Assembly: GCF_965363235.1 (NCBI RefSeq)
Contig: NC_134851.1
Span: 20,488,347-20,552,346 of the forward strand
Direction: 5' to 3'
DNA: 64,000 nucleotides
Source of the DNA: Mytilus galloprovincialis
Taxonomy: Eukaryota; Mollusca; Bivalvia; Mytilida; Mytilidae
Shown here: in pieces, positions 1,641-60,367 of the stretch
How the letters are laid out: each line of letters starts with the position of its first letter
How positions within the stretch are numbered: the first letter of the stretch is position 1
Notes under the pieces: model-generated
Told to the model about the DNA's origin: nothing
The model's database searches: none
Seen by the model: only the letters and a program-made list of their open reading frames with translations
Translations under genes and position numbers: made by a program

Positions 1641-2420
1641 GTGACACATGTGTATCATAACCTTGAAAAATGTTATTAAACCAATTCATAATATCATTAG
1701 AAATCCAAAAACACTTAATATATAGTAAATAGTTCAAATGTTTTTGAAAAAATTTTGCTACATTTTTGCGCATGCGCAAATACTGGATATGTCAAATATT
1801 CATTTTTAATAAATATGTGATGTAAGGAAGGTAGCCACCAAACCTGGTAATTGTTTTTTACTAAAAGAAGTTCAAAGAAAAGTTTTCCAGAAAAATCAGT
1901 ATTTTCAAACTAAAGAAAACAGCTATTTTAGAAAATGGCCGTGGCCATCTTGAAAAAAATAATTTGTTTAATGGTCAGTAGTTATTTCTTACAAAGTATA
2001 TAATAATGATGCTTTGTGGTAATTTTCATGCTTGTATCATCATTTGCACAATTCCCTCGATTTTGCTTGCTAATATCTTCCACTATTAGTGTATTCAGCT
2101 ATGTTGAAAGACCTGCATAATGACAAATGACAAGAATACAAACTGGTTTTTTTTTTTGGGGGGGGGGGGGGGTGTAAATCGATGCAATTTGAATAAAATG
2201 ACGTTTTTTTTTAGAAAATACAAACAGGTGGTTGATGTAGAATTCCGCCAAAGCAGTCGATCAAGAGTGCGGTGAAGATTTTAAGACTTTGAAATAATGC
2301 AACTGTGATTGAAAAGAATATAAATGTATACAGTGGAAAGATGCGAGCTACAATTTTGGCGCTTACATTTTTTTTTTTTTGTTAAGATGGGAAATTCCAA
2401 ACTGGTTTATATTTCATTAA
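1641..2420. other. Unassigned AT-rich DNA
   Basis: No coding or repeat signature was recognised here, apart from a poly-T/poly-G run near 2141-2173 (T run followed by about 15 G). Confidence 0.5.
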
Positions 2421-3496
2421 AGCCCTGGTCACAACGAACCCACTGCAAATCTATGCAGCCCCGACATAAAATTTGGTCAAAGTGCGGGTCATTTGTGGTC
2501 GTCGTACGACAATCGGACGACCGTCGAACGATATTTTGAGCATCGTGGCGCTGTCGTGTGTCGTGGTACGGAAATTGGCTATGCACCTTATTTACCTTTT
2601 TTTGTTGTGTCACTATCTTCTGGTTGTCGTGAAAGTGTCTTACAACCGTCGTGCGACTGTCGTGCGATACACACATTGTCGTGAGTATCAACATAAACCA
2701 TTTTAATCAAACAATCGTCGAATGACTGCAGTACGACAATCTCACGACTGTCGCAAGACACTTGTGATACAGTCACACGATTGTCTCACGAATACCAAAT
2801 TTCGTACAATGCTCGCACAACATTAATTGTCTGTCTTACGACAGTGGTACGGTCTTCGGGCAACATATTTTCGTTTTATTTAGAAGCATACAATTAGGCG
2901 GGAATGACTGTTTGGGAAAACTTACCGTCTACCGTTTAAAGAGGATGGCTATTCCATCAGAACGATTATGCTTGGCTATGCTGAAAAGGCGCCTTCCCGA
3001 ACTCCAACAAGAGCAACATATGGTCCTGTAAGCGTTGATTTGAGCCCGTGAACAGTATAGGAACCAGCAAAACGCTCGACGTTGGTGGGTAAGCCATGGA
3101 TCGAACAGCGCCTGATGTTTGGGCAGTATAGTACACTGATGCAAGAGTTAGACCGATATTTCACCGGTTATCGCATCAGAGTGGCACGACAGGGGCACGA
3201 CAGTGACACGACAGTAACACGCGCATCCCATGACATGAAAACCTGAAAAAATGTCCCAAACAACTCACGATTGTCGTACGATTATCGCCCGACTGTCGGA
3301 CGATTGCCACATGACCGACTTGCGACACACCAATTACAATATCAATTTTTTTTTCTGTCGTATACCCATCGTGGAACCATTGTGAACATGTCGTATCTGA
3401 TGTGACCACTCGAAATATTTTTTTGACATTTTGCACGACAACTATTTTCTAGATTTTCCACCACAAAAAATCGTAAGATCTGTTGTGACCGGGTCT
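2421..3496. mobile_element. CpG-rich foldback/MITE-like element, 1,076 bp
   Basis: The ends are inverted: the left 15 bp (2421-2435, AGCCCTGGTCACAAC) and the reverse complement of 3482-3496 (AGACCCGGTCACAAC) match at 13 of 15 positions. Both arms are filled with a degenerate CpG-rich motif built on GTCGTACGAC / CTGTCGTGCGA in both orientations. This base composition contrasts sharply with the surrounding AT-rich DNA. No transposase was seen and no clear target-site duplication was found. The short reading frames inside (for example 2407-2694 minus) are motif shadows. It is most simply a non-autonomous DNA transposon; the superfamily is unknown. Confidence 0.6.
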
Positions 3497-11717: not shown

Positions 11718-14700
11718 TAAACCATTTGATAGACTGATTTGACCCACAAATAAACATTCTTATTCAGGTAAAAACGATGATAAACATTTATTTTTTATCT
11801 GAAATATGACATTTAATAGACCTTAAATAACTCAACAGCATGTGTTTGCTTAATCTATTTATATTTATATTTAGGTTTACATCGCTTATATGGTCATCGG
11901 ATGACTCTAGAGGTCAATTCGATAAATAATTAGATGGCGTCTAGACTCAAATACACACAAAACGAAGCTATGTATGTTCATGCCTGTGCCTTGTTTATTG
12001 TTATATTTAGACTTTTAATTGTTTGGATAAATGTTTTACATTGTTGTAAATCAAATATGAGAATTTGATTAGAATCGATGAATATGAATTTGACAGCTAG
12101 TGCCCTTTCAAATAAGGCAGTGTATTGTTAGCTCCATCTTATAAATCAGGAAACGGAAATTCTTCAACGAGACAGCAACACTTTAGATCTGATCGCGAAA
12201 ATTTGTTGCGAAGTTCTGGGCACTTTAAATTACTATTTATAAAGTTTCAACAACTTTTTCCCCAACAAATGATCATAAGAGATGAATACAGTAAATAAAA
12301 AAAAATCAAAGACGCACGTGAACACATATATCAGAATCAATTAATGTCAAGTTACAGTAAAAGGGTCATGTCACAGGATTTTTTAAAAATTAGCAGTTAC
12401 CTTTGGGTCGTTAGACTGTATCCGAAAATCGAAAAATATAATGCATTTATCGCTATTTTTCTCAAATAGGTGACCATTTTTATAGAAAGCACATAAAAAC
12501 GACGAACGTTTTTTTAATTCGATGAATTTCCAATTTTTACTCCATAGATTATTCCTTAAAAACTATATGTTCTTGGTTCAAAACGTATACCGAAATCTGT
12601 GACAGAGTCAGTCCACTGCTCCTTGACCTCAAGGGGAATAAAAGATTTAAACAAAGATTATTTTAAAACATTATTGCTTCTGGTCGTAAAGAATGATAGG
12701 TTACACTTATCCTAAGACGTACCAATCGATACAGAGTTCATTCTCAACCCATACAATTCTTGAGACGTTACAATCGATATAGTGTTCATTCTCAACCCAT
12801 GCAATTCTTTAAAGGGTTATATTTTAATGTGAATAGGTACTATAAACACAACAATATATAGTAAATATATTTTATTTAAGTGAAACATTTTCTTATCTTG
12901 ACATGAACAAATGATGAATACCTTGATATTTAAACGGTAAATAACCCAAATATAATTTCCAAGGCCGTCCAAGGTAGAAATGATAAAATGACATTGTCCT
13001 ACATTAAAAAGAAATTACTAAATACTGCTTTATCGTGCACAGTCATTGAAAGCATGTACGTGTTGTTTACTATTGGGTGTAAATGATAATCATGATTTCA
13101 CATCTGTCAGTAGATCTTACAAAACTAAACAAAACTAATAGTTATCAAAGGTACCAAGATTATAATTTAATACATATAAATAAATAAATGTTCACATATA
13201 GGAACAACACATTAAAATAACCGTTATGTTTTCGTAGAATGCTTGTCACCAGGAAAATATTACTGTCCTCCCAACATTTAACCACGGAGTGTGTACAAGC
13301 CACACCATTCCATTGAGATTTCATTATTTGACAGAGTTATTTCTAATATTTATGATGTGTTTGCAACTCGTATGGTTTACCCTCTACTGCTTGAAGTTAT
13401 CATGTTAACCTATAATTAATCCTCATGGTTGGTAAAAACTGTTTATTTATTTTTTATTTGAGCGTCACTGGTGATTTTGTTTGTAAACAAAACGCGCGCC
13501 TGGCGCAAAAACAAAATTGTAATTGTGGTGTTTATAATTCGTTAACTTATATGGCTTGCTTGTCTAATACTATCTTTCATTTGACTACAACCTACAGATT
13601 AGCAGAAGGTTATGTAACTATACAAGTCTATATATTGTCTTTCTTTTTGTCTTCCAATTGTCCTCATGATGTTATCAATTGGAAAACAAATATATATAGT
13701 TATCATGCTTACCTGTCGATCAACTGCTCCCCAATAAAAACAAAGTTTTGAAAACACTTGAAATCGTTAATCTTGACATTTCAAATTTAATATATCACAA
13801 TAACACTGGGTATGATTTGTGGTAGATATAAATCATAGATGCATTGATATCGACTGAATATAAACAAATCTTTTGGAGTAAGATAAACAAAGTAAAACTT
13901 ATATACCAAATACAAGAGGCTCTCCATGGGGTGTTATCTATAACAGGAAATTTTTTATAAAACAAACATTCCATATTCGAGCAGGTACCAATAACATGGA
14001 TATTTACTTTATTTGAAAGATGTGTTAAAGGTTAAAGCTCATAGTACAAATAGTAGGGTGCCCAGTTTCAAAAAAGACGTCTAGTTAACGAGTTTAAGTT
14101 AACGGATAACATACGGCTATATTTATATGCTAACTATTGGAAAATCATTATATTTTTTAATCATGAATGTCGTCGTAAGATAACGTGGTCACGTTTTTCA
14201 TAATTTTGTGGTCTCTAAGGGTACCCCAAAATACCTCATCATACATGCCATCTTCAACACAAAAAATAAAATTATTACTTTCTGTGTTATTTGTTCAGAT
14301 GATACTTATCATTTAGCTTAAAAATTACATTTATCATATAAAGAAAGCTTGAAAGATTTATATAATTTAAGTAAAAGTATTTCATGAATTTAGTAAGACT
14401 ATTTTTGTAGCTGAAATTTAACACATTTTGAACGAAAGAACATTTTTTGTGTGTTACTTTCATGGGATTTTTACTCTGATTACATCAATAAGACATGGTC
14501 CATATGTGTGCCAAATATCTTTCGTGTAATGTTAATCGGTGAGAAGAAAATAGCAATTTAAAGCACAAATTTAGTGATTATTCTGTCTTGATTCAAACAC
14601 GCCTTTTCTCGTTCCGTTAATCGTTTTGTAGCTTACACTATCAGGTCTTTAACTAGGACAAGTGTAACTAACTTCGTTTCTCTTTTTTGCTTGTTGTGTG

Positions 14701-14792: not shown

Positions 14793-17700
14793 TAAACCAT
14801 TTGATAGACTGATTTGACCCACAAATAAACATTCTTATTCAGGTAAAAACGATGATAAACATTTATTTTTTATCTGAAATATGACATTTAATAGACCTTA
14901 AATAACTCAACAGCATGTGTTTGCTTAATCTATTTATATTTATATTTAGGTTTACATCGCTTATATGGTCATCGGATGACTCTAGAGGTCAATTCGATAA
15001 ATAATTAGATGGCGTCTAGACTCAAATACACACAAAACGAAGCTATGTATGTTCATGCCTGTGCCTTGTTTATTGTTATATTTAGACTTTTAATTGTTTG
15101 GATAAATGTTTTACATTGTTGTAAATCAAATATGAGAATTTGATTAGAATCGATGAATATGAATTTGACAGCTAGTGCCCTTTCAAATAAGGCAGTGTAT
15201 TGTTAGCTCCATCTTATAAATCAGGAAACGGAAATTCTTCAACGAGACAGCAACACTTTAGATCTGATCGCGAAAATTTGTTGCGAAGTTCTGGGCACTT
15301 TGAATTACTATTTATAAAGTTTCAACAACTTTTTCCCCAACAAATGATCATAAGAGATGAATACAGTAAATAAAAAAAAATCAAAGACGCACGTGAACAC
15401 ATATATCAGAATCAATTAATGTCAAGTTACAGTAAAAGGGTCATGTCACAGGATTTTTTAAAAATTAGCAGTTACCTTTGGGTCGTTAGACTGTATCCGA
15501 AAATCGAAAAATATAATGCATTTATCGCTATTTTTCTCAAATAGGTGACCATTTGTATAGAAAGCACATAAAAACGACGAACGTTTTTTTAATTCGATGA
15601 ATTTCCAATTTTTACTCCATAGATTATTCCTTAAAAACTATATGTTCTTGGTTCAAAACGTATACCGAAATCTGTGACAGAGTCAGTCCACTGCTCCTTG
15701 ACCTCAAGGGGAATAAAAGATTTAAACAAAGATTATTTTAAAACATTATTGCTTCTGGTCGTAAAGAATGATAGGTTACACTTATCCTAAGACGTACCAA
15801 TCGATACAGAGTTCATTCTCAACCCATACAATTCTTGAGACGTTACAATCGATATAGTGTTCATTCTCAACCCATGCAATTCTTTAAAGGGTTATATTTT
15901 AATGTGAATAGGTACTATAAACACAACAATATATAGTAAATATATTTTATTTAAGTGAAACATTTTCTTATCTTGACATGAACAAATGATGAATACCTTG
16001 ATATTTAAACGGTAAATAACCCAAATATAATTTCCAAGGCCGTCCAAGGTAGAAATGATAAAATGACATTGTCCTACATTAAAAAGAAATTACTAAATAC
16101 TGCTTTATCGTGCACAGTCATTGAAAGCATGTACGTGTTGTTTACTATTGGGTGTAAATGATAATCATGATTTCACATCTGTCAGTAGATCTTACAAAAC
16201 TAAACAAAACTAATAGTTATCAAAGGTACCAAGATTATAATTTAATACATATAAATAAATAAATGTTCACATATAGGAACAACACATTAAAATAACCGTT
16301 ATGTTTTCGTAGAATGCTTGTCACCAGGAAAATATTACTGTCCTCCCAACATTTAACCACGGAGTGTGTACAAGCCACACCATTCCATTGAGATTTCATT
16401 ATTTGACAGAGTTATTTCTAATATTTATGATGTGTTTGCAACTCGTATGGTTTACCCTCTACTGCTTGAAGTTATCATGTTAACCTATAATTAATCCTCA
16501 TGGTTGGTAAAAACTGTTTATTTATTTTTTATTTGAGCGTCACTGGTGATTTTGTTTGTAAACAAAACGCGCGCCTGGCGCAAAAACAAAATTGTAATTG
16601 TGGTGTTTATAATTCGTTAACTTATATGGCTTGCTTGTCTAATACTATCTTTCATTTGACTACAACCTACAGATTAGCAGAAGGTTATGTAACTATACAA
16701 GTCTATATATTGTCTTTCTTTTTGTCTTCCAATTGTCCTCATGATGTTATCAATTGGAAAACAAATATAAATAGTTATCATGCTTACCTGTCGATCAACT
16801 GCTCCCCAATAAAAACAAAGTTTTGAAAACACTTGAAATCGTTAATCTTGACATTTCAAATTTAATATATCACAATAACACTGGGTATGATTTGTGGTAG
16901 ATATAAATCATAGATGCATTGATATCGACTGAATATAAACAAATCTTTTGGAGTAAGATAAACAAAGTAAAACTTATATACCAAATACAAGAGGCTCTCC
17001 ATGGGGTGTTATCTATAACAGGAAATTTTTTATAAAACAAACATTCCATATTCGAGCAGGTACCAATAACATGGATATTTACTTTATTTGAAAGATGTGT
17101 TAAAGGTTAAAGCTCATAGTACAAATAGTAGGGTGCCCAGTTTCAAAAATGACGTCTAGTTAACGAGTTTAAGTTAACGGATAACATACGGCTATATTTA
17201 TATGCTAACTATTGGAAAATCATTATATTTTTTAATCATGAATGTCGTCGTAAGATAACGTGGTCACGTTTTTCATAATTTTGTGGTCTCTAAGGGTACC
17301 CCAAAATACCTCATCATACATGCCATCTTCAACACAAAAAATAAAATTATTACTTTCTGTGTTATTTGTTCAGATGATACTTATCATTTAGCTTAAAAAT
17401 TACATTTATCATATAAAGAAAGCTTGAAAGATTTATATAATTTAAGTAAAAGTATTTCATGAATTTAGTAAGACTATTTTTGTAGCTGAAATTTAACACA
17501 TTTTGAACGAAAGAACATTTTTTGTGTGTTACTTTCATGGGATTTTTACTCTGATTACATCAATAAGACATGGTCCATATGTGTGCCAAATATCTTTCGT
17601 GTAATGTTAATCGGTGAGAAGAAAATAGCAATTTAAAGCACAAATTTAGTGATTATTCTGTCTTGATTCAAACACGCCTTTTCTCGTTCCGTTAATCGTT

Positions 17701-35364: not shown

Positions 35365-38300
35365 CTGAAACAAGATTTCAATAGAATAATTCAGCGTGTA
35401 TATGTCCATCAAAAGAAATTATTAAGTTGTTTTCTGGATATGAAATCTTTTTAATATATATCTAAACAATTTATTTTTACTTATTGTTTGAATACCATAT
35501 AGCTTTCGTTCTTTTCCTTCCCTTTTTTTGTGTGTATGTGTTTGTCGTAATTGTATATTGCCCTTTTGATTCGTAATTATGAAATGCCTCATCGTTATAT
35601 AATGGCATTACTGAATATTGAAGTATAGCCAAAAGTGATGGAAGTAACGTTACACATTAAAAGTAATATCGGGATAATATAAATCAAGTAGGTTAACATG
35701 ATTAACGATACCAATTTTACTGCACAAGATCCACATTTTGACAATAAATGTCTTTTCATTAATGCACGGGGCTGAAATATTCAAATATCCATCATCAAAT
35801 AAATATATATTATTAATTTGTTCGCTTTGAGAACATCGACTGTACAAATCTAGAGTGACAGATCTGCATTTAGACGATTTAAGTCAATGCAGTGTCCAAG
35901 ATGCCCAAATAGCTGTCATTTATCGAAACATTATACAAACGTTTAACCCGTTATTCGCTATGCATGTATCTGTTTAAGCTATCATTCAACAGCATTGAAC
36001 ATAATGATACATTTATTATAAGGTCTTACATTTGAATCTAAATATTTAAGTTATGTTAATGGAATACCTGAGCGTGGTGTAAGTGGATAGTTGCCCCCGG
36101 TGTTTCCTGAAGTAACTGGATACACTTCGGTTGTGACGTCACTGAACTGATCAATATCCTGGGATATTGGGAACAAATTGTTTGTTGGATCTGTAAAAAA
36201 TAAAAAATAAAAATGTGGTATGATTGACAATGAGACAACTCTCCATAAGAGACCAAAATACACTTATAGATCAACGTACGGCCTTGAATAATGAACAAAG
36301 CCCAAACCGCATAGTCAGCTATAGAATGCCCCAAAATGACAAATGTAAAGCAATTCCAACGAGTAAACTAAAGGCCTACTTTTTGTTGAAAAAACGAACG
36401 AAAAAGAAATATAAAACACATAAATAAACTTAAATTTTAGAACCAAATCAGAGGTACAGTAAGAGTCATTGTTTGAATACCATATAGCTTTCGTTCTTTT
36501 CCTTCCCTTTTTTTTGTGTGTATGTGTTTGTCGTAATTGTATATTGCCCTTTTAATTCGTAATTATGAAATGCCTCATCGTTATATAATGGCATTAATGA
36601 ATATTGAATGTATAGCCAAAAGTGATGGAAGTAACGTTACACATTAAAAGTAATATCGGGATAATATAAATCAAGTAGGTTAACATGATTAACGATACCA
36701 ATTTTACTGCACAAGATCCACATTTTGACAATAAATGTCTTTTCATTAATGCACGGGGCTGAAATATTCAAATATCCATCATCAAATAAATATATATTAT
36801 TAATTTGTTCGCTTTGAGAACATCGACTGCACAAATCTAGAGTGACAGATCTGCATTTAGACGATTTAAGTCAATGCAGTGTACAAGATGCCCAAATAGC
36901 TGTCATTTATCGAAACATTATACAAACGTTTAACCCGTTATTCGCTATGCATGTATCTGTTTAAGCTATCAATCAACAGCATTGAACATAATGATACATT
37001 TATTATAAGGTCTTACATTTGAATCTAAATATTTAAGTTATGTTAATGGAATACCTAAGCGTGGTGTAAGTGGATAGTTGCCCCCGGTGTTTCCTGAAGT
37101 AACTGGATACACTTCGGTTGTGACGTCACTGAACTGATCGATATCCTGGGATATTGGGAACAAATTGTTTGTTGGATCTGTAAAAAATAAAAAATAAAAA
37201 TGTGGTATGATTGACAATGAGACAACTCTCCATAAGAGACCAAAATACACTTATAGATCAACGTACGGCCTTGAATAATGAACAAAGCCCAAACCGCATA
37301 GTCTGCTATAGAATGCCCCAAAATGACAAATGTAAAGCAATTCCAACGAGTAAACTAAAGGCCTACTTTTTGTTGAAAAAACGAACGAAAAAGAAATATA
37401 AAACACATAAATAAACTTAAATTTTAGAACCAAATCAGAAGTACAGTAAGAGTTTAAGCCATGTACAACATCAGACAAATGAAAACTGCAAAACAAATTG
37501 CTGTATAAGCCATACTCTTTCAAATGTCATGCAATTTTATTAACCTAAAAATAGGTGACGTGATTTGATTCTCCGTTAGTTAGCTACATTTTGTACCAGA
37601 CACTGTCGTCACAACTCGGCCGGTTATGTACCTCATAGAAGGAGAGTAGCGGAATCAACCGAAGATTGCCGATTGCTACCAGCAAGAGTGCAAGTGACGT
37701 AGATGTTAGCAATGCATGATCATTGTACTGTCTTCGACAACGAGCAATCTCTAGCCATATAGTCCGCTATAAAAGGCATATTAATGACAAAATTTAAAAC
37801 AATTTAAACGGATTGCATTACAAAAGATAAGGTTATGTAACACTGGAAACGAAAATGGCATTGTTTAGTGCAGCCTACTGTAAACCACTTGTGATTAAAA
37901 AGATAAAGTTATCTTACGCTGTCAAAGAAAATGGTCAAGTTTATTTTAGCCTGTTGTAATTCATTGGAGATATACAAAAATAATTAAAAAAAAATAAAGT
38001 TGTCTAAACGGTATAGTTAATTGCAGCCTGTTGTATACCATTGAAGATAATTAAAAAAGATAAAGTTATCTTACACTGACAAAGAAAATGGTATAGTTTA
38101 TTGCAGCCTGTTGCATACCATTGAAGATAACAAGAAAAAAGATTAAGTTATCTTACACTGACAAAGAAAATGGTAAAGTTTATTGCAGCCTGTTGTAATC
38201 CGTTGGAGATATAAAAAAAAATAATAAAAAAATAAAGTTGTCTTACACTGACAAAGAAAATGGTTTAGTTTATTGCAGCCTGTTGTATACCATTGGAGAT

Positions 38301-41300
38301 AATAAAAAAAGATAAAGTTATCTTACACTGACAAAGAAAATGGTATAGTTTATTGCAGCCTGTTGTATACCATTGGAGATAATAAAAAAAGATAAAGTTA
38401 TCTTACACTGACAAAGAAAATGGTATAGTTTATTGCAGCCTGTTGTATACCATTGGAGATAATAAAAAAAGAGATAAAGTTATCTGACACTGACAAAGAA
38501 AATGGTATAGTTTATTGCAGCCTGTTGTATACCATTGGAGATAATAAAAAAAAATAAAGTTATCTGACACTGACAAAGAAAATGGTATAGATTATTGCAA
38601 CCTATTGTATACCATTGGAGATAATAATAAAAAAAGATTAATTTATCTTACACTGACAAAGAAAATGGTATAGTTTATTGCAGCATGTTGTATACGTTAT
38701 ATAGATACAATGGATAAGCGTTGATTTTTGAAAACGAAACCATGAGTTCGGAGAGCAAATGGTTTGTTTTTCATGAATCAGCGCTTATCCATTGTATCTA
38801 TCACTTAAACTATTGTGTTAATTTGTTTTAAAAATTAACGCCTATTCTTAAGTAGAAGGTATTGTGAGTGAGTTTAAATAACCATGTTATTGTGTCAAAT
38901 AATCCATTACAACAAATTATATATCACAATTAAATGGTTAAAAAAATACAAATATATTTTAACATAACACCTCTGCCCTTAAAAATCTTCATATCATCAG
39001 GCATTTGAATGTTATCTTTTTTTTTTTACAAAATAAGATATATTCGAACTTATTTGTATTAAAATTGATCTTAACGGAAATGGAGAATGTATCAAAGGGA
39101 CAATAACCCGACAAAGAACATTATATATAGTGCATATAATATGTGTATTTCCGAAATTGCTTGCAATAAGCCTAATTCTAGACACATCACGATTTTCTAG
39201 CATAGGAATTTGCGAATTAAAATTTGTAAAATTATGTAGTAAAACAGATGAAATCATATTATATCAATTTATAAAAACCAATACTATGCAATCCATTTTT
39301 GTTTTGTTTCAAACATGTGGAATAGCTAACAATAATCCGATAATAAACGACCAAAGTCGCTCTTATTACACAAAATATCCACAATAACATAAAAAGCAAG
39401 AACAAAACTGGAAATCTAGACTATAGGAACATCAAAGAGAATTTAGACAAACAAGTCCTTAGCTTTAACTCATTTATCTTAACCATAAAACCTCGTGGCT
39501 ACCAACTCATACTATACGTTTGCCTACTATGTATATATATAAAGCTACAAGTCTTGTGTGTCCGTTGTACAGATGTTTATCAAATATTCATTTATATATA
39601 TATAATAGACTTATAAATCGTAACTGATTGGTAGCCCAGAGGTTTCGTCGATATGTTGATGTCAGTAAAACGTAACAGAATTGATGAGCGGATTCGATTC
39701 CCAGTGAAGGCATAGTTAAATTACGAAAAATGAAAAGTAAGTTTTTAAAATAATTCCATTAGTGAACAGAAATCAGTAAATTAGTCAATTCAAAATTAAT
39801 TATATTAGACGACAAAGGAAACAAAAGAATATAATCTTTTTTAAGTTATCTTACACTGACAAAGAAAATGGTATAGTTTATTGCAGCAGGTTGTGTACCA
39901 TTAAAGATAATAAAAGAATAAAAAATATTAAGTTATCTTACACTGACAAGGAAAATGGTATAGTTTATTGCAGCCTGTTGTATACCATTGGAAATTAAAA
40001 AAAATAAAAAAAAAGATAAAGTTGTCTTACACTGACAAAGAAAATGGTATAGTTGAGTGCAGCTTGTTGTGTACCACTTGTATTGAGCGCTTCCCCTTGC
40101 CGTCACACACTTTGATGTTGCCATGTTGTTAGGTTCACCGTTAGATACCATCCAATCCGTAAACGTTGTTGGTGTTCCATCGTTCCAGGAAAAGGTAACT
40201 CCGTCCGTCGTTAACCCAATCCAGTAATCATCTGTCAGAAGGCTTTTAGATGGAAATGAAAACTTCATTAACGTATAATGTTGTATAAAAACAAAACTTT
40301 TTATTTTTATTTTATTTTTCTATTTCAAAATCATAATAGTTATATAAAAAATAATAATAAAAATACAGTAAAATAAATAATCGATTACCAAATTTAACAT
40401 GTTGATACATGGTCTGCTCAATTGGCCGTTGTTTCTATCTTATCAATTCCTGTTCAATTTGTTCAAGTAATGTTCTGGCTATTGTCCATGTATTAAGGTA
40501 ATAGTTTCAGTTGTGACAAAAAATGCGAATTTAAAAATTTTAATATAAAAATAGAAGATGTGGTATGATTGCCAATGAGACAACCGTCCACAAGAGACCA
40601 ACATGACACAGAAATTAACAGCTATAGGTAAGAACGGTTAAGATTGGTTATTGATTGTTTAACGTTCATATGCAATATACATTTTCGAGTCCGTTGCATA
40701 TCTGTCAAAAACTTTGGTTTTAGTGAACAATATTTGTGCATTTAGGGACATAATCACTTTTATTATAGTGGTAAGCATATGATAATATATTGAACAAATT
40801 ATTATACGGCAATTTAAATATCAAATTCCTATAATTGATAATCAGCATTACTGTCATTAGAGAATTGCGAAGAATTAATTACGGAACAAACATTATTTCT
40901 AGTTTATCCGGAATTATGACGATCTCGAAGACGCTTGATGAACTATTAAGGCGCGTACTTTACAAACTTCTCCGGTGAAGGACATAACATCCATATTATC
41001 AAATAAGAAGGCAAAGATGCACTGAGACGCTTAAAACCCATCAGTGAAAGAAACAGAAGAGCTTTATTGGATCCCGAACGAAATAAAGACGGAAAATAGT
41101 CTTTAACACAACATGGTTATCTACGTGTCAGCAACACGAACCTCGACAAACCAATGCTGACTTTAGTTTTTCAACATGAAACACTTAATGACACAGAAAT
41201 TAACAATTATATATCACTTTACAGCTTTACAGAGTAAAATCCTTTCGCATAGGCAGTTACAAAAAGACCCGAAATGTAAAACAATTCAAAGAAATTTAAT

Positions 41301-54484: not shown

Positions 54485-54601
54485 TCAATATTTGTTTGGT
54501 TGGTGGATAATCTGAGGTTTCTGATTTGGTCTGTTGTCATGTGTTGGCAATGGCTTATCATGATACGCCTTCACAGCCTCTGGGGGGAAATCTTTGTCTC
54601 C
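54485..54601 (-). CDS. DAP: DAP1 exon 4
   Basis: Encodes GDKDFPPEAVKAYHDKPLP and the 3' end ...IIHQPNKY with a TGA stop. Its first ~15 nt and acceptor are copied upstream in intron 3 (54586-54812). Confidence 0.92.
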   Translation of the reverse strand, partial: GDKDFPPEAVKAYHDKPLPTHDNRPNQKPQIIHQPNKY

Positions 54602-57600
54602 CTGAAATAGTTAAAAAGTAATAATAAATAGAAGTGTTAAAATGTATTAAAATAAACTACTTTAGAAACTTTGTCTCCCAGAAATAGCAAAACCACAATA
54701 ATATTTAACAGTATTAAAATGTATCAAAAGAAACTACTTTGGAAATCTTTGTCTCCCTGAAATGGTTAAACAGTAATAATATATTATATAACAGTGTTTA
54801 AATGTTACAAAGCAAGGAACTTTTGTTAAGTGATTAGTTTTTTTGCAAGTTTAAATTTCTCAATTTCATGTAAACACTATTTTTTTTCCAAACTATTTTT
54901 GTGTTTTTCCTGGACTTTTCTGATCTTTCTTTTCTTTTTTCCAATAGTAATTATTGATTTTCTTTAACTTGATTCTTGAATGACAGTTAGGTGCATGTTG
55001 TCTTATTAAGTTCATGGCTACTCACCTTACTTAAAGCACCAGATATCAATACTGAAGTATGGTGTTTATCAGATTTTGGACCACTGAAAAAAGAATACAG
55101 CCATATATTGATAAATCGTCAACTGTATAAATATCCAATTGATATTTTATCGTGTGTTTTTCTATGTTGTGATGTTATACTATTTTTCAGAAAAAAGGAG
55201 AAGGTTTGGTACCATTAAAACATTTAATCCTGCTGCAATGTTTGCATCTGTCCTAAGTCAAAATTTTGATGTACAGTAGTTGTCGTTTGTTTATGTAATT
55301 TATAAGTGTTTCTCGTTTCTCGTTTTTTTTATATAGATTAGACAGTTTGTTTTCCCGTTTGAATGGTTTTACACTAGTAATTTTGGGACCTTTTATAGCT
55401 TGTTGTTCCGTGTGAGCCAAGGCTCCGTGTTGAAGGCTGTACATTGACCTATAATGGTTCACTTTTATAAATTGTTATTTGAATGGAGAGTTGTCTCATT
55501 GTCACTCATACCACATCTTCCTATATATCTATTAATAATTCATTACAATGGGCATAATAATAGTATTAAAATTCAAGTTTGAGCCTTGTGAGAAGTATCT
55601 CCAAACATTGCTTAATGTCTTCTCTCATATCTGTGTCTGCATTTCAACAGAATTCTTTTTAATTTAAAGAATATTTTTGTAAAATTTTATGTAAATGATA
55701 GTGGCCATTGTAATTGGGACCTCAAAGGAGATCATCAACATGATCAATGTATGATGGAAGCATTTTCCTAAAGTTTGACAGAGCTTGTTTTACTCTGAAC
55801 ACATGTTTGTTCTATTCTCACTATTAACATCAACATTAGTTGGTCTCTGTCATAAGATTGAAGTAAACACTCTACATATATGATTTATAAAGACTTTGAC
55901 CAAACTGTTCCTGTTGAAAATATCTATGAATGACAGACAATGAAAATTGCCAAAACATGCAAAATGCAAAAAATTAAAACTGGCTCTCCTTACAAGTTAC
56001 AAGTTTTTAATTAATTCAAGTTAAATTCCTTCATGAATATAGAGCACGCATTCATAATCAAAATAATATTTGTACATGTAGTATGACACAAAATCTGTGA
56101 TATAAATGTGATTTTATTTTCTCAATAATTCTGATGGGCATCTGGAATTGAATCCCACAGATCAAACAGTCTTCAGTACAGAAAATCACTGATACTAATT
56201 TTGTGTTTCAAACGTGAAATCAAATATACAGACATGACAGACATACATCCTAATCATGCTTATCTAGAAAACCCTAAAGAATACAGACCCATCTCCAAAC
56301 TCCTCAATTTCCTCTTTTGTTGGAGGGGGTGTGGCACCTTCAACTTTTTCATTCTTCTGGTGGGTAACAACTCTCATGCCACCTACTTTCACTGTAAAAA
56401 AGAAGTCACTTATTATACATTTATTTACTTCTATTACATTGATCATGTTGATTTAATGTAGACTATTTGGCATGTTAAGAAACATGAGAAATACGAATTC
56501 AAACTGAAAAACATTCATTTCTACATTTTTCATACCTAAAATTACTATATGTGCAGATTTGAGGGTCTATGTATGTATCATCAATGACAAAAGCCTTAAA
56601 GGGATAAGAGGGATCTTGCATATTTTTCAAAGCAGGGTTTGACTCTGTAAATTGAAGTTTCAGAAAAATTCATGGTTTATTCTAAATTTCTGAATTTGAT
56701 GAAAATTACACATATTTTCTCAATAAAAAAGGGTACAGGTAGTTTTGAAATCAAAGCCTTAAAGGCTGTAAAAGCAATTGCTGTCATGTTAATGTTTGGG
56801 GACTTTTATTTTTCATCCACATATATATAATAATTAAACCTGACATGAGTGTTGTCTAGTTAGAAGTAAGTAGGTTTTAACTTTATATAAATAAAAAACT
56901 TTAGCAGAAAGTCATTTTTAATATGTTTTATATTTCACAAGGAGACAACACGTTTACCAGGCTAAAGTTGGGGTCAAATATACATGTGCTGAAACATATA
57001 ACTCAAAAAGAAATCATCATGGATTATCCCCTGGTAGTGTTTGTAACTGGGCAATAATTTCCTTTATTGATTTAATTTTAACAATTTTCATTATCAATTT
57101 ATATCTAACCATTAACACAAATGATTAAGTTAAAACATTTCAACTTTCCAGACGCAAATGTTAAAAAACGGGAAAGAAATAAAATATCTTACAAGACATA
57201 AACATGTAAAGAATAAATATATATTTCAGCTTAATAAAAATATTTTCATAATGGTACTTTGTCATCATTTTTAAAACTAAGTTCCAAACATTATTGCTCA
57301 GTTGATATACATGTATGTCCTTCTGATGCGGTACGAGCACAGGCACTTGTTTCTATCCAAAATAGTTTTATATGGATAGCCGACCTTCCTATGGATAGAA
57401 ACGAGTGCATGTGGGTACGAGATAACTATAATTCTCATGCAATCCCGAAAAGGGGGGGTCATCACAGACAAACATGACATTAAATCGTTATCACTGATGT
57501 ATTGTTTAGGGCCAGTTGAAGGACGCCTCCGGGTGCGGGAATTTTTCGCTGCATTGAAGACCTGTTGGTGACCTTCTGCTGTTGTATGTTTTTCTATGGT

Positions 57601-60367
57601 CGGGTTGTTGTCTCTTTGACACATTCCCCATTTCCATTCTCAATTTTATTATACGAACAAGAACAAACAGCTCTACGTTGTTTTGACATTTATCAATTTT
57701 CAGGAAACATTGCGAAAAATGATCTTCAATATTTCGAAAACATGTGAAATAAAATTGCTAACACGGTGGACCGTCGAGTGTCAACAAACGTAGTAGACTT
57801 GTTCACTGAAAAGACGAGGATAATGGTTTCATCTGACATTTGTTATGCATTCCCAGTTTTCAGGGGCGGATGCAGGAATTTTCGAAAGGGGGGGTGCTAA
57901 CCCAGGGAACCCAGGGCAAAGGGGGGTGCAAAACATATGTCCCGATACAAATGCATTGATCGGCAAAAATAAAGGGGGGGTGCGCACCCCCGGAACCCCC
58001 CCCCTGGATCCGCCACTGGTTTTGATCATGATATTTAAAAAGACGTACTTTTTTTCAATCTATGTAACTAGAAAATTCCAAATTGAAATGTCTCTTCATC
58101 TGGACCGACTTGGCATCTACTACGTTTGGACGGGTCCATTTCATTAGTAAGGTGATCGATAAATATTACGGAGTTTGACAGAAAAGGAAAACGAACTTAT
58201 TGTTATTTGTTTTCAACAAGGGTTTCGTTCCGCTAAATTATTTGCGCAAACAAAGTTTGTCTATTTTTAGATTACAGGTAATCATTTGACACTACGCATT
58301 AACCTGTGTAGTGATTTTGATTTTACGATAAATGTATGAATGAACGATAATTTTATGAATGAACAAGAGCACCTGACCTCTTAAAGAAACACAAATTAAA
58401 CATATAAAACCGTATTTAATAGGAGATAATTCAGTTAAATTTTCAATACTAAATCAACAACTGAAATGAATCCATATTTTGTTGAAACATCGTACGAACG
58501 GCGGAAAACGGAATCGCAGTTATAAAAATGTACTTTTTTTCACTCGGACTTCTATGTTATTTGATAGTCAAACGATTGACCCTTTAAATACAAAAATACA
58601 TCTACAAGAACATATTCTGAAACTTCTTAAATCCACTAACGTTTTTTTAAAGTTTCAAGCTATGTATTGCATTAGAAAACATACATAGGTGTTAAAGAAT
58701 GACAGACCAGGAGCCTGTTTAACAAAATACTATGGCTTGATATGGGCGGAGTCTCTGATCTGGGTCACAAAGATGGCCATACGCGATAGCATAAAAGCAA
58801 TTGCTTTAAAAAGCCATTTATATCTCTGATATCATAACCAGGCGGTTAAATATAAAATATCTGCCGATTTTCACTGGCAACAGGCTTCTATTGAAAGCAC
58901 TGCACATTGAACATGTTGAATAAAAGTATATATAAAGATAGCAAGTCAATGGACCAATTTATACATTAATGATCAATAACAAAGATAACCTTAAGAAAAA
59001 TGTGAAGATTATCTTTGCGGCTTGATTTATTGACAATCATGCATACACGGGTTATGTTCTTCTCATATATGTTATGATGGTATGATACTAAACCCCTAAC
59101 GGGAAGGATTGTGCCTGGTTATGTTCTTCTCATATATGTTATGATGGTATGATACTAAACCCCTAACGGGAAGGATTGTGCCTGATGTTCATATGATGAA
59201 ATCATAATCTTTCAGTCAGTTTAGTTGAAGTCTGGAGCTGGCATGTCAGTTAACTGCTAGTAGTCTGTTGTTATTTATGTATTATTGTCATTTTGTTTAT
59301 TTTCTTTGGTTACATCTTCTGACATCAGACTCGGATTTCTCTTGAACTGAATTTTAATGTGCGTATTGTTATGCGTTTACTTTACTACATTGGTTAGAGG
59401 TGTATAGGGGGAGGGTTGAGATCTCACAAACATGTTTAACCCCGCCGCATTTTTGCGCCTGTCCCAAGTCAGGAGCCTCTGGCCTTTGTTAGTCTTGTAT
59501 TATTTTAATTTTAGTTTCTTGTGTACAATTTGGAAATTAGTATGGCGTTCATTATCACTGGACTAGTATATATTTGTTTAGGGGCCAGCTGAAGGACGCC
59601 TCCGGGTGCGGGAATTTCTCGCTACATTGAAGACCTGTTGGTGACTTTCTGCTGTTGTTTTTTATTTGGGCGGGTTGTTGTCTCTTTGACACATTCCCCA
59701 TTTCCATTCTCAATTTTATACAACAATAATTTTTCCATTGTGGCATCAGATATTTTGTATTATGACATCAAAATTTTATCTGGAACCTTTGTGATGTGCA
59801 GTAATGTTGGATAAATAGCAATAAGGTGTATTATCGCTTTTTTACAAAAATTTCCTTCGGCTTCGATCTTGCTAACTGATAATTTCCTTTCTCTGCGGAG
59901 TCAAGTGATACATGTATGAAAAGTTATTGCTAGAACCTTATGAAATTTACAGCGTCATAATAGTAATAGGTGAAATATCGATAAAAGATCATTATTGGTC
60001 ATCTCAACACATTGCTTTTCTCAATTTGACCGTACCCCTGCTCAAGAGAGATAATTATCAAACCTTGTGATGATCAACCACAATATAAATGTGACTAAAA
60101 TTTAGAATTCTAATGCCTGACTTTAATAGGACACAATAATTTATTAGCTTTTTTTTAATTATTCTTTCAGTTTTGCATTAATTCAGGTTTCACTAAGAGT
60201 AAACACTGTAAATAAATAAATGTTGCCATGTTGAGCAGCTGTTTGTTTGCTGAGAACATTTCGAGTTAAGTCTAATGGATGACAAAAAATGTAAACTTAT
60301 ATCCTCTGTTTATACCTGCAGGTGCATGGCCACCCTTCAGTTCTGCATCTTGACTAGCGTCTGACAT
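54485..60367 (-). CDS. DAP: Death-associated protein 1 (DAP1), 109 aa, four coding exons
   Basis: Coding exons 60367-60316, 56391-56289, 55083-55026 and 54601-54485 join in phase (52+103+58+117 = 330 nt). The predicted protein runs MSDASQDAELKGGHAPA, VKVGGMRVVTHQKN, GGPKSDKHHTSVLISG, then SKGDKDFPPEAVKAYHDKP. It aligns along its whole length with vertebrate DAP1: GG/AGHPPAVKAGGMRI, FISGVIARGDKDFPP. DAP1 is a small, mostly disordered proline-rich cytosolic protein. In mammals it is an mTOR substrate that restrains autophagy (established). Mussel DAP1 keeps the ISG...GDKDFPP core but shows no Ser-Pro at the position of the human second mTOR site. An acceptor (AAAAGCAG) four bases before the ATG suggests a 5' UTR intron. 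Donor of exon 2 (GG|GTCTGT) is weak. Confidence 0.93.
54586..54812. repeat. Triplicated ~77-bp unit at the DAP1 exon 4 acceptor
   Basis: Units 54586-54663, 54664-54740 and 54741-54812 share GGAAATCTTTGTCTCCCTGA and AAAATGTATTAAAA. Unit 3 keeps an intact acceptor CAG|GGAGAC (exon start would be 54756). Unit 2 has CTG in place of CAG. Confidence 0.88.
55026..55083 (-). CDS. DAP: DAP1 exon 3
   Basis: 58 nt encoding GPKSDKHHTSVLISGALSK. Acceptor TTTTTTCAG, donor AAG|GTGAGT. Corresponds to the vertebrate FISG region. Confidence 0.9.
55238..55532 (+). repeat. Dispersed repeat family B copy in DAP1 intron 2
   Basis: Contains GTTTCTCGTTTCTCG, AGCTTGTTGTTCCGTGTGAG and CACTCATACCACATCTTCCT. The remainder of intron 2 (55533-56288) is unassigned. 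Confidence 0.75.
56289..56391 (-). CDS. DAP: DAP1 exon 2
   Basis: Encodes VKVGGMRVVTHQKNEKVEG, then ATPPPTKEEIEEFGDG. Acceptor TTTTTTACAG. The overlapping plus-strand frame 56201-56461 is its shadow. Confidence 0.9.
57502..57655 (-). repeat. Dispersed repeat family A fragment in DAP1 intron 1
   Basis: Shares CGCCTCCGGGTGCGGGAATT and the terminal CCATTTCCATTCTCAATTTTA with the other family A copies. Confidence 0.8.
57861..58018. mobile_element. 158-bp G-rich MITE with GTTTT target duplication
   Basis: Inverted termini CAGGGGCGGATGCAGG and CAGTGGCGGATCCAGG (reverse complement of the right end), flanked by GTTTT at 57856-57860 and 58019-58023. This terminal sequence is common in metazoan MITEs. 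The frames 57829-58147 are its by-products. Confidence 0.85.
59041..59720 (-). repeat. Longest copy of dispersed repeat family A, with an internal tandem duplication
   Basis: Ends in the family terminus at 59716. At 59050-59185 a ~67-bp segment (GGTTATGTTCTTCTCATATA ... GGAAGGATTGTGCCTG) is present twice in tandem. Confidence 0.8.
60316..60367 (-). CDS. DAP: DAP1 exon 1
   Basis: Encodes the first 17 residues, ending GGHAPA plus one base; donor G|GTATAA. The Met is the only one in frame after the nearby acceptor. Confidence 0.85.

Follow-up and report, generated by a model that had tools for sequence, protein, structure and literature searches.

The subject of this analysis is a window (the whole stretch of DNA analysed) of 64,000 nucleotides from the mussel Mytilus galloprovincialis, positions 20,488,347 to 20,552,346 of contig NC_134851.1 (assembly GCF_965363235.1), and in particular a minisatellite in intron 7 of a C-type lectin gene on the minus strand. 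By alignment, the array consists of 13 degenerate units of ~80 bp, not counting the exon itself. Each unit, read on the minus strand, is made of the end of exon 7, its splice donor, and the first bases of the intron, so this is a tandem repeat whose unit holds the splice donor of the adjoining exon. The minisatellite was probably seeded across the splice junction and is probably near-neutral. On this reading the array exemplifies something that happens generally in such a minisatellite-bearing genome.

The array and its host gene

A first-pass annotation of the sequence had described an exon end with its donor repeated about 13 times in the next intron, and had placed the origin of the repeat in the 3' end and donor of exon 7. 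Both statements are borne out by the unit alignment and by sequence searches. Tandem Repeats Finder (TRF) reports an 80-bp unit in 10.8 copies (score 1089) at 37822-38695 and an 89-bp period in 2.7 copies at 39841-40076, the latter including the end of exon 7. In a genome DNA search, exon 7 with its donor gave 11 separate matches in the array at 84-93% identity over 58-67 nt, with E values from 4.0e-9 to 3.5e-19, far beyond chance; in each of the two genome DNA searches with the exon end, 2 candidates were scored. A whole-genome pattern search (28 nt, at most 3 mismatches) found 11 matches, all at this locus, and 0 with the reversed control. The features of the locus are as follows.

40031-40242, minus strand: exon 7, the second half of the third C-type lectin domain (Pfam Lectin_C together with exon 6), with an open frame ending in KWYTTSCTQLYHFLCQ
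40025-40030, minus strand: exon 7 donor GTAAGA, read directly, matrix score 5.2
39841-40076, minus strand: exon-proximal part of the array (TRF and alignment), comprising the exon end and units with donors after 39942 and 39855
38696-39836, no strand assigned: dispersed repeat of ~1.1 kb that splits the array and begins with an inverted-repeat hairpin
37822-38695, minus strand: distal part of the array, eleven units (TRF period 80, 10.8 copies; unit listing)
After 38652, 38569, 38489, 38407, 38327, 38247, 38157, 38075, (deleted near 37999), 37918 and 37842, minus strand: donors of the distal part (unit listing)
37055-37177, minus strand: next exon, phase 1-1, which joins exon 7 in an open frame if the array is skipped (acceptor score 15.5)
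36068-36190, minus strand: second copy of this next exon, 987 bp further on, near-identical in sequence and with the same acceptor score

The GTAAGA donor is kept in 9 of the 13 units, and in 8 of these the preceding T is kept as well. Of the other donors, those after 38569 and 38489 read GTCAGA, that after 37842 reads GTTACA, and the one near 37999 is deleted. Unit lengths are not kept to a multiple of three.

The host gene contains three Lectin_C domains, which were recognised in joined exon translations at 30.1, 29.1, and 49.7 bits (cut-off 22.6; E values 8.4e-7, 1.7e-6, and 6.7e-13). The last of them is formed by exons 6 and 7. The second exon of domain 1 on its own reaches 18.1 bits, which is under the cut-off. 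Gene structure was derived from open frames only, and splice sites were scored with matrices of vertebrate-like frequencies, not fitted to this species. Eight of the nine assigned acceptors of the gene score 4.7-15.5. Exon D has an acceptor score of -1.8 and a donor score of 1.3, and both of its sites are probably misassigned. Exon 7 ends in phase 1 and is joined in frame by the exon at 37177-37055. This next exon appears to be phase 1-1 in both copies, so that one, the other, or the two together could be used.

Two motifs of the exon, ACAAGTGG and CTGCACT, recur in the outermost unit (u13, donor after 37842) but in no other unit. In a tree of the units exon 7 also groups with u13 (support 0.849). 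As the outermost unit is the most exon-like, the first duplication probably led from the exon end to the outermost unit, and the middle units arose later. Of 1080 candidate places for the dispersed repeat that splits the array, 40 were scored; at least 35 long copies elsewhere match 988 or more of its 1141 bases, with identities of 81-88%. Compared with 20 other copies, the inserted one differs at 92 of 1073 columns (8.6%) in which 18 or more of the 20 are in agreement; these 20 copies were aligned out of the 40 scored, so that the 8.6% is an upper bound on the time since insertion. In the two best-scoring paralogues, which are on the same contig, no such array is present within 4.6-5 kb of the matching exon. 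Two nearly identical lectin paralogues (L066 and L067) are ~99 kb apart on the same contig, and L067 has a perfect 72-bp tandem pair ~1.5 kb downstream from the exon.

The most likely history of the array is as follows. An ~80-bp tandem duplication spanning the exon 7-intron 7 junction would have seeded the minisatellite, which would then have grown inside the intron, between the exon and the outermost unit, by slippage or unequal exchange. Exon 7 would go on using its own donor, the first in the series, since this is the one that adjoins the remainder of the exon, and the downstream donor copies would mostly be ignored and removed with the intron. The array may persist because growth on the intron side would cost little, while growth on the exon side would be selected out.

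Inert DNA, which was among the options of the first-pass annotation, is the likeliest state of the array because of the deletion, the lost sites, the 1.1-kb insertion, and the fact that other exon edges are straddled by arrays at about the expected rate. The tally of decay is one deleted donor, one GTTACA, two GTCAGA, two losses of the AG that otherwise stands 33 nt before the donor, and one unit in which the 33-nt piece between this AG and the donor contains stops.

Arrays on other exon edges

To count as covered, an exon edge had to have at least 8 nt on both sides inside an array of period at least 30. Arrays of this kind make up 1.7-2.8% of the sequence sampled around the locus (without and with the present array). 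In 30 lectin loci, where the edges of control exons are the ends of protein matches and not annotated junctions, 3 of 60 edges were covered (this gene, L005, and two other loci, L009 and L020). Such arrays cover 2.8% of the window and a further 37 kb of its contig taken together, which predicts 1.65 covered edges (P 0.23). With the coverage of lectin flanks (4.7%), 2.8 covered edges are expected (P 0.55), and when the present array is left out of both edges and coverage, the count is 2 of 59 against 0.98 expected (P 0.26). None of the 32 edges was covered in 16 further loci (9 lectin and 7 fibrinogen-type) with only ~400-470 nt of flank.

The two other covered lectin exons are overlapped on the acceptor side. 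In L009 (plus-strand 1689-3006) the array is 33 bp x 40 and contains TTACAG/GGACAATAATAACGATTTCT (here and below a slash marks a splice junction); in L020 (128-1520) it is 60 bp x 23. A fourth case is found within the window, in a DAP-like gene (Pfam PF15228, E 1.1e-15) with a 77 bp x 2.6 array at 54586-54784 on the minus strand. The acceptor of its last exon, which is at 54601, and the first bases of that exon recur twice in the preceding intron, at 54756 and, without the AG, at 54678. The copy which keeps the AG scores 9.0 and the exon's own acceptor 11.3. Among 29 other lectin exons tested, no donor end recurred within the following 1.5 kb, apart from a single match of 18 nt. Exon-edge minisatellites thus recur in this genome at about the rate expected from array density, and the lectin array is the donor-side instance. 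In one further locus (L098, 694-1010) a 42-bp x 7 array starts 46 nt past the end of the lectin match.

Variation among units and possible roles in splicing

Several comparisons weigh mildly against a purely neutral array. A 23-nt block, CCATTTTCTTTGTCAGTGTAAGA, which was picked after viewing the alignment, shows less variation than the remainder of the unit (all counts exclude the deleted unit u11). Among 10 units 2 of its 23 columns vary, against 19 of 45 elsewhere (nominal P 0.005, scan-corrected 0.055). With 12 units the counts are 6 of 23 and 29 of 45 (P 0.004, corrected 0.043), and with 12 units plus the exon, 6 of 23 and 30 of 45 (P 0.002, corrected 0.028). The stretch made of the 33-nt piece and the donor, which had been defined by the first-pass annotation, behaves similarly: 6 of 39 columns vary against 13 of 27 flank columns in 10 units (P 0.006), and 15 of 39 against 18 of 27 in 12 units (P 0.044). 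The longest invariant run in this stretch is not unusual (P 0.35 and 0.07). Between units across the insertion, with insertion-boundary columns masked, the 39-nt core differs at 2.3-6.3%, the upstream stretch at 17-23%, and the first intron bases at 13%. With 8.6% of private differences in the inserted repeat, the core has stayed more similar than expected from a neutral clock. The lower variability of the block is marginal after correction and speaks mildly against a purely neutral history, and the similarity of the core could also come from gene conversion with the exon or from uneven mutation.

Selection on coding was considered from codon positions with insertion-boundary columns unmasked. 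With the two outermost units set aside, changes at positions 1, 2, and 3 number 6, 4, and 5; including these units, the counts are 9, 12, and 10. As changes are not concentrated at third positions, nothing points to coding constraint.

The 23-nt block falls on a site that the first-pass annotation overlooked. Just before the donor, in exon 7 and in all 12 donor-bearing units, there is an acceptor-like sequence, CCATTTTCTTTGTCAG/T or a close variant, which is stronger than the AG 33 nt upstream and overlaps the donor (TTTTCTTTGTCAG/T and variants). Its scores of 8.0-10.9 place it at the 94.7th-99.1st percentile among 546 AGs of the strand that carries the gene. When the window was scanned on both strands (AG, 0-3 bases, GTAAG, acceptor score at least 5), 12 hits resulted, of which 10 are exon 7 and array units and 2 lie elsewhere. 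The units could therefore be read as overlapping 3' and 5' splice sites (TTTTCTTTGTCAG/T/GTAAGA) that allow optional whole-unit exons or stepwise removal of the intron, and tandem arrays of dual-specific sites in human UBC are spliced, as outlined in PMC10809524.

Whole-unit exons, from the overlapping acceptor to the next donor, would be 77 to 91 nt long, or 158 and 1204 nt across the deleted unit and the insertion. In only 4 of 11 cases is the length divisible by three. In nine of the 11 adjacent pairs the result is FLCQL or FLCQS followed at once by a stop; two of these nine reach across the insertion or the deleted unit. One of the remaining two pairs shifts the frame, and the other (u4 to u5, 81 nt) is in frame and inserts 27 residues. 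When exon 7 is extended to the unit donors instead, an in-frame stop is contained in 11 of 12 products and the twelfth (+89 nt) shifts the frame. Most unit inclusions would end the protein right after the lectin domain, so the array would amount to a series of poison or truncating exons.

Such a use of the units is nonetheless unlikely. The acceptor and the donor are not joined as AG/GT, since one base stands between them (CAG T GTAAGA). The copies descend from one exon end and are therefore not independent, and their pyrimidine stretch is accounted for by the HFLCQ codons. The two best paralogues read CAA in place of CAG. Two of the 11 pairs carry no stop in the unit exon, and u4 to u5 keeps the frame. 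A more specific version, in which intron 7 would be a duplicated ladder of overlapping sites, more constant than the rest of the unit and entered stochastically, with most entries truncating the lectin after its third domain, is a little less probable again. If it held, the length of the array, which could differ between individuals, would tune what proportion of transcripts is truncated or decayed.

A role of the array as a set of decoy donors is improbable to much the same degree as the ladder. Here the repeated GTAAGA would bind U1 snRNP (small nuclear ribonucleoprotein) and alter how the donor of exon 7 is used, or would protect the intron, which carries AATAAA motifs, against early polyadenylation. 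The 9 of 13 units with GTAAGA, 8 of them with the preceding T and the score of exon 7, would suit this role, as would the 10 AATAAA motifs on the transcribed strand of the 1038 bp array, compared with 103 on the same strand of the 64 kb. These motifs (37822-39999, minus strand) each lie ~22 nt before a donor and arise through changes absent from the exon. They are, however, one chance motif copied with the unit and not ten independent ones, and use of a unit donor gives a stop or a frameshift in 12 of 12 cases.

It is very unlikely that the array is mis-assembled, or that the gene is a pseudogene and nothing is spliced. A gene model built on open frames leaves room for this, but the exons join in an open frame and encode lectin domains with the E values given above (8.4e-7 to 6.7e-13, with 1.7e-6 for the second domain), and most units differ from one another, which argues against a simple assembly loop.

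Least probable of all is the proposal of the first-pass annotation that the 33-nt pieces are phase 1-1 cassettes which yield lectin isoforms with extra Cys-containing peptides. One unit serves as an example.

38407-38439, minus strand: 33-nt cassette of unit 6, acceptor score 3.6; its last bases carry the overlapping acceptor TTTTCTTTGTCAG/T, score 9.6, 97.6th percentile of the 546 AGs

The phase assignment agrees with the open frames of exon 7 (phase 1) and of the exon at 37177-37055 that joins it. An acceptor 33 nt before the donor was said to be supplied by each unit. It is present in 10 of the 12 donor-bearing units, and the AG is lost with the donors after 39855 and 38652. The cassette is open in 11 of the 12; the unit at 37918 has stops in it. 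Eight of the 13 units combine this AG with an open frame of 33 nt and a donor reading GTAAGA or GTCAGA, and inclusion would keep the frame. Yet the acceptors score 2.2-4.2, near the 75th percentile (3.4) of the 546 AGs and below eight of the nine assigned acceptors of the gene. By coordinates, neighbouring cassettes would be separated by introns of only ~47 nt. In 20,000 shuffles, a frame-neutral, stop-free cassette of 15-57 nt before a GT arose 21% of the time, and among 599 natural GTs not belonging to the array the share is 27%. The added peptide, CCNKLYHFLCQ, would bring an odd number of cysteines. Isoform diversity from these cassettes is unsupported because the acceptor is weak and lost in two units and because frame-neutrality is common by chance.

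Comparison with known systems

The closest precedent is the minisatellite of G1P3/IFI6, which is likewise located at an exon end and repeats the splice donor. The repeat donors downstream there are reportedly used in mRNA, whereas those of the mussel are candidate donors. The G1P3 repeat unit is reportedly much shorter than ~80 bp. The mussel unit, at ~80 bp, is unlike that minisatellite in being mostly intronic.

In human UBC, as summarised in PMC10809524, the site in each tandem unit also reads as both a 3' and a 5' splice site. The UBC units are described there as coding, a multiple of three in length, and joined as AG/GT, while the mussel units are intronic, irregular in length, have AG T GT, and lead to early stops. 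Expansion of minisatellites at exon-intron boundaries is likewise outlined for human segmental-duplication genes (PMC2812944), where the repeats came from comparing paralogues and transcripts, whereas the mussel array was found in genomic DNA. Recursive sites at exon ends (PMC10156609) resemble the mussel sites in having a 3' splice site at the exon end beside the donor. They are single, have AG/GT, and are supported by lariat evidence, whereas the mussel sites are arrayed, with one base between, and known from DNA. The Rlec C-type lectins of prawns are alike in being lectin genes with variable tandem repeats (30/33-bp), as sketched in PMC7536079; those repeats are given as coding, located in exon 2, and changing the protein, in contrast to the mostly intronic mussel array. 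The excerpt available of a study of a C. elegans minisatellite near alternative splicing (PMC4039745) contains nothing decisive for the present array, and the excerpt of a survey of bivalve lectin repertoires (PMC10140915) does not mention introns or splicing. Among the titles and abstract openings listed in searches of the open-licence literature, none described this array or any bivalve minisatellite carrying a splice donor. The array may be placed with the known minisatellites that lie at exon-intron boundaries or carry repeated donors.

The signals in the array could in principle confuse splicing, though the array probably does little or nothing. If it were used, the frequency with which splicing departs from its usual course in an immune-type gene would be set by minisatellite copy number, and the array would be a mollusc counterpart of those in UBC and G1P3. 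If it is inert, which is likelier, exon edges in this genome get caught in the growth of minisatellites, as in this gene, the DAP-like gene, and the two lectin exons. In that case, up to ~40 copies of a splice-site region beside the real one would provide a natural test of site choice among near-identical copies.

Two further repeats were seen in the window. A 48-bp doublet occurs twice (12715-12809 and 15790-15884), 3,075 bp apart, which suggests a larger tandem duplication. At 59050-59184 a 67-bp unit is present in two identical tandem copies, presumably very recent.

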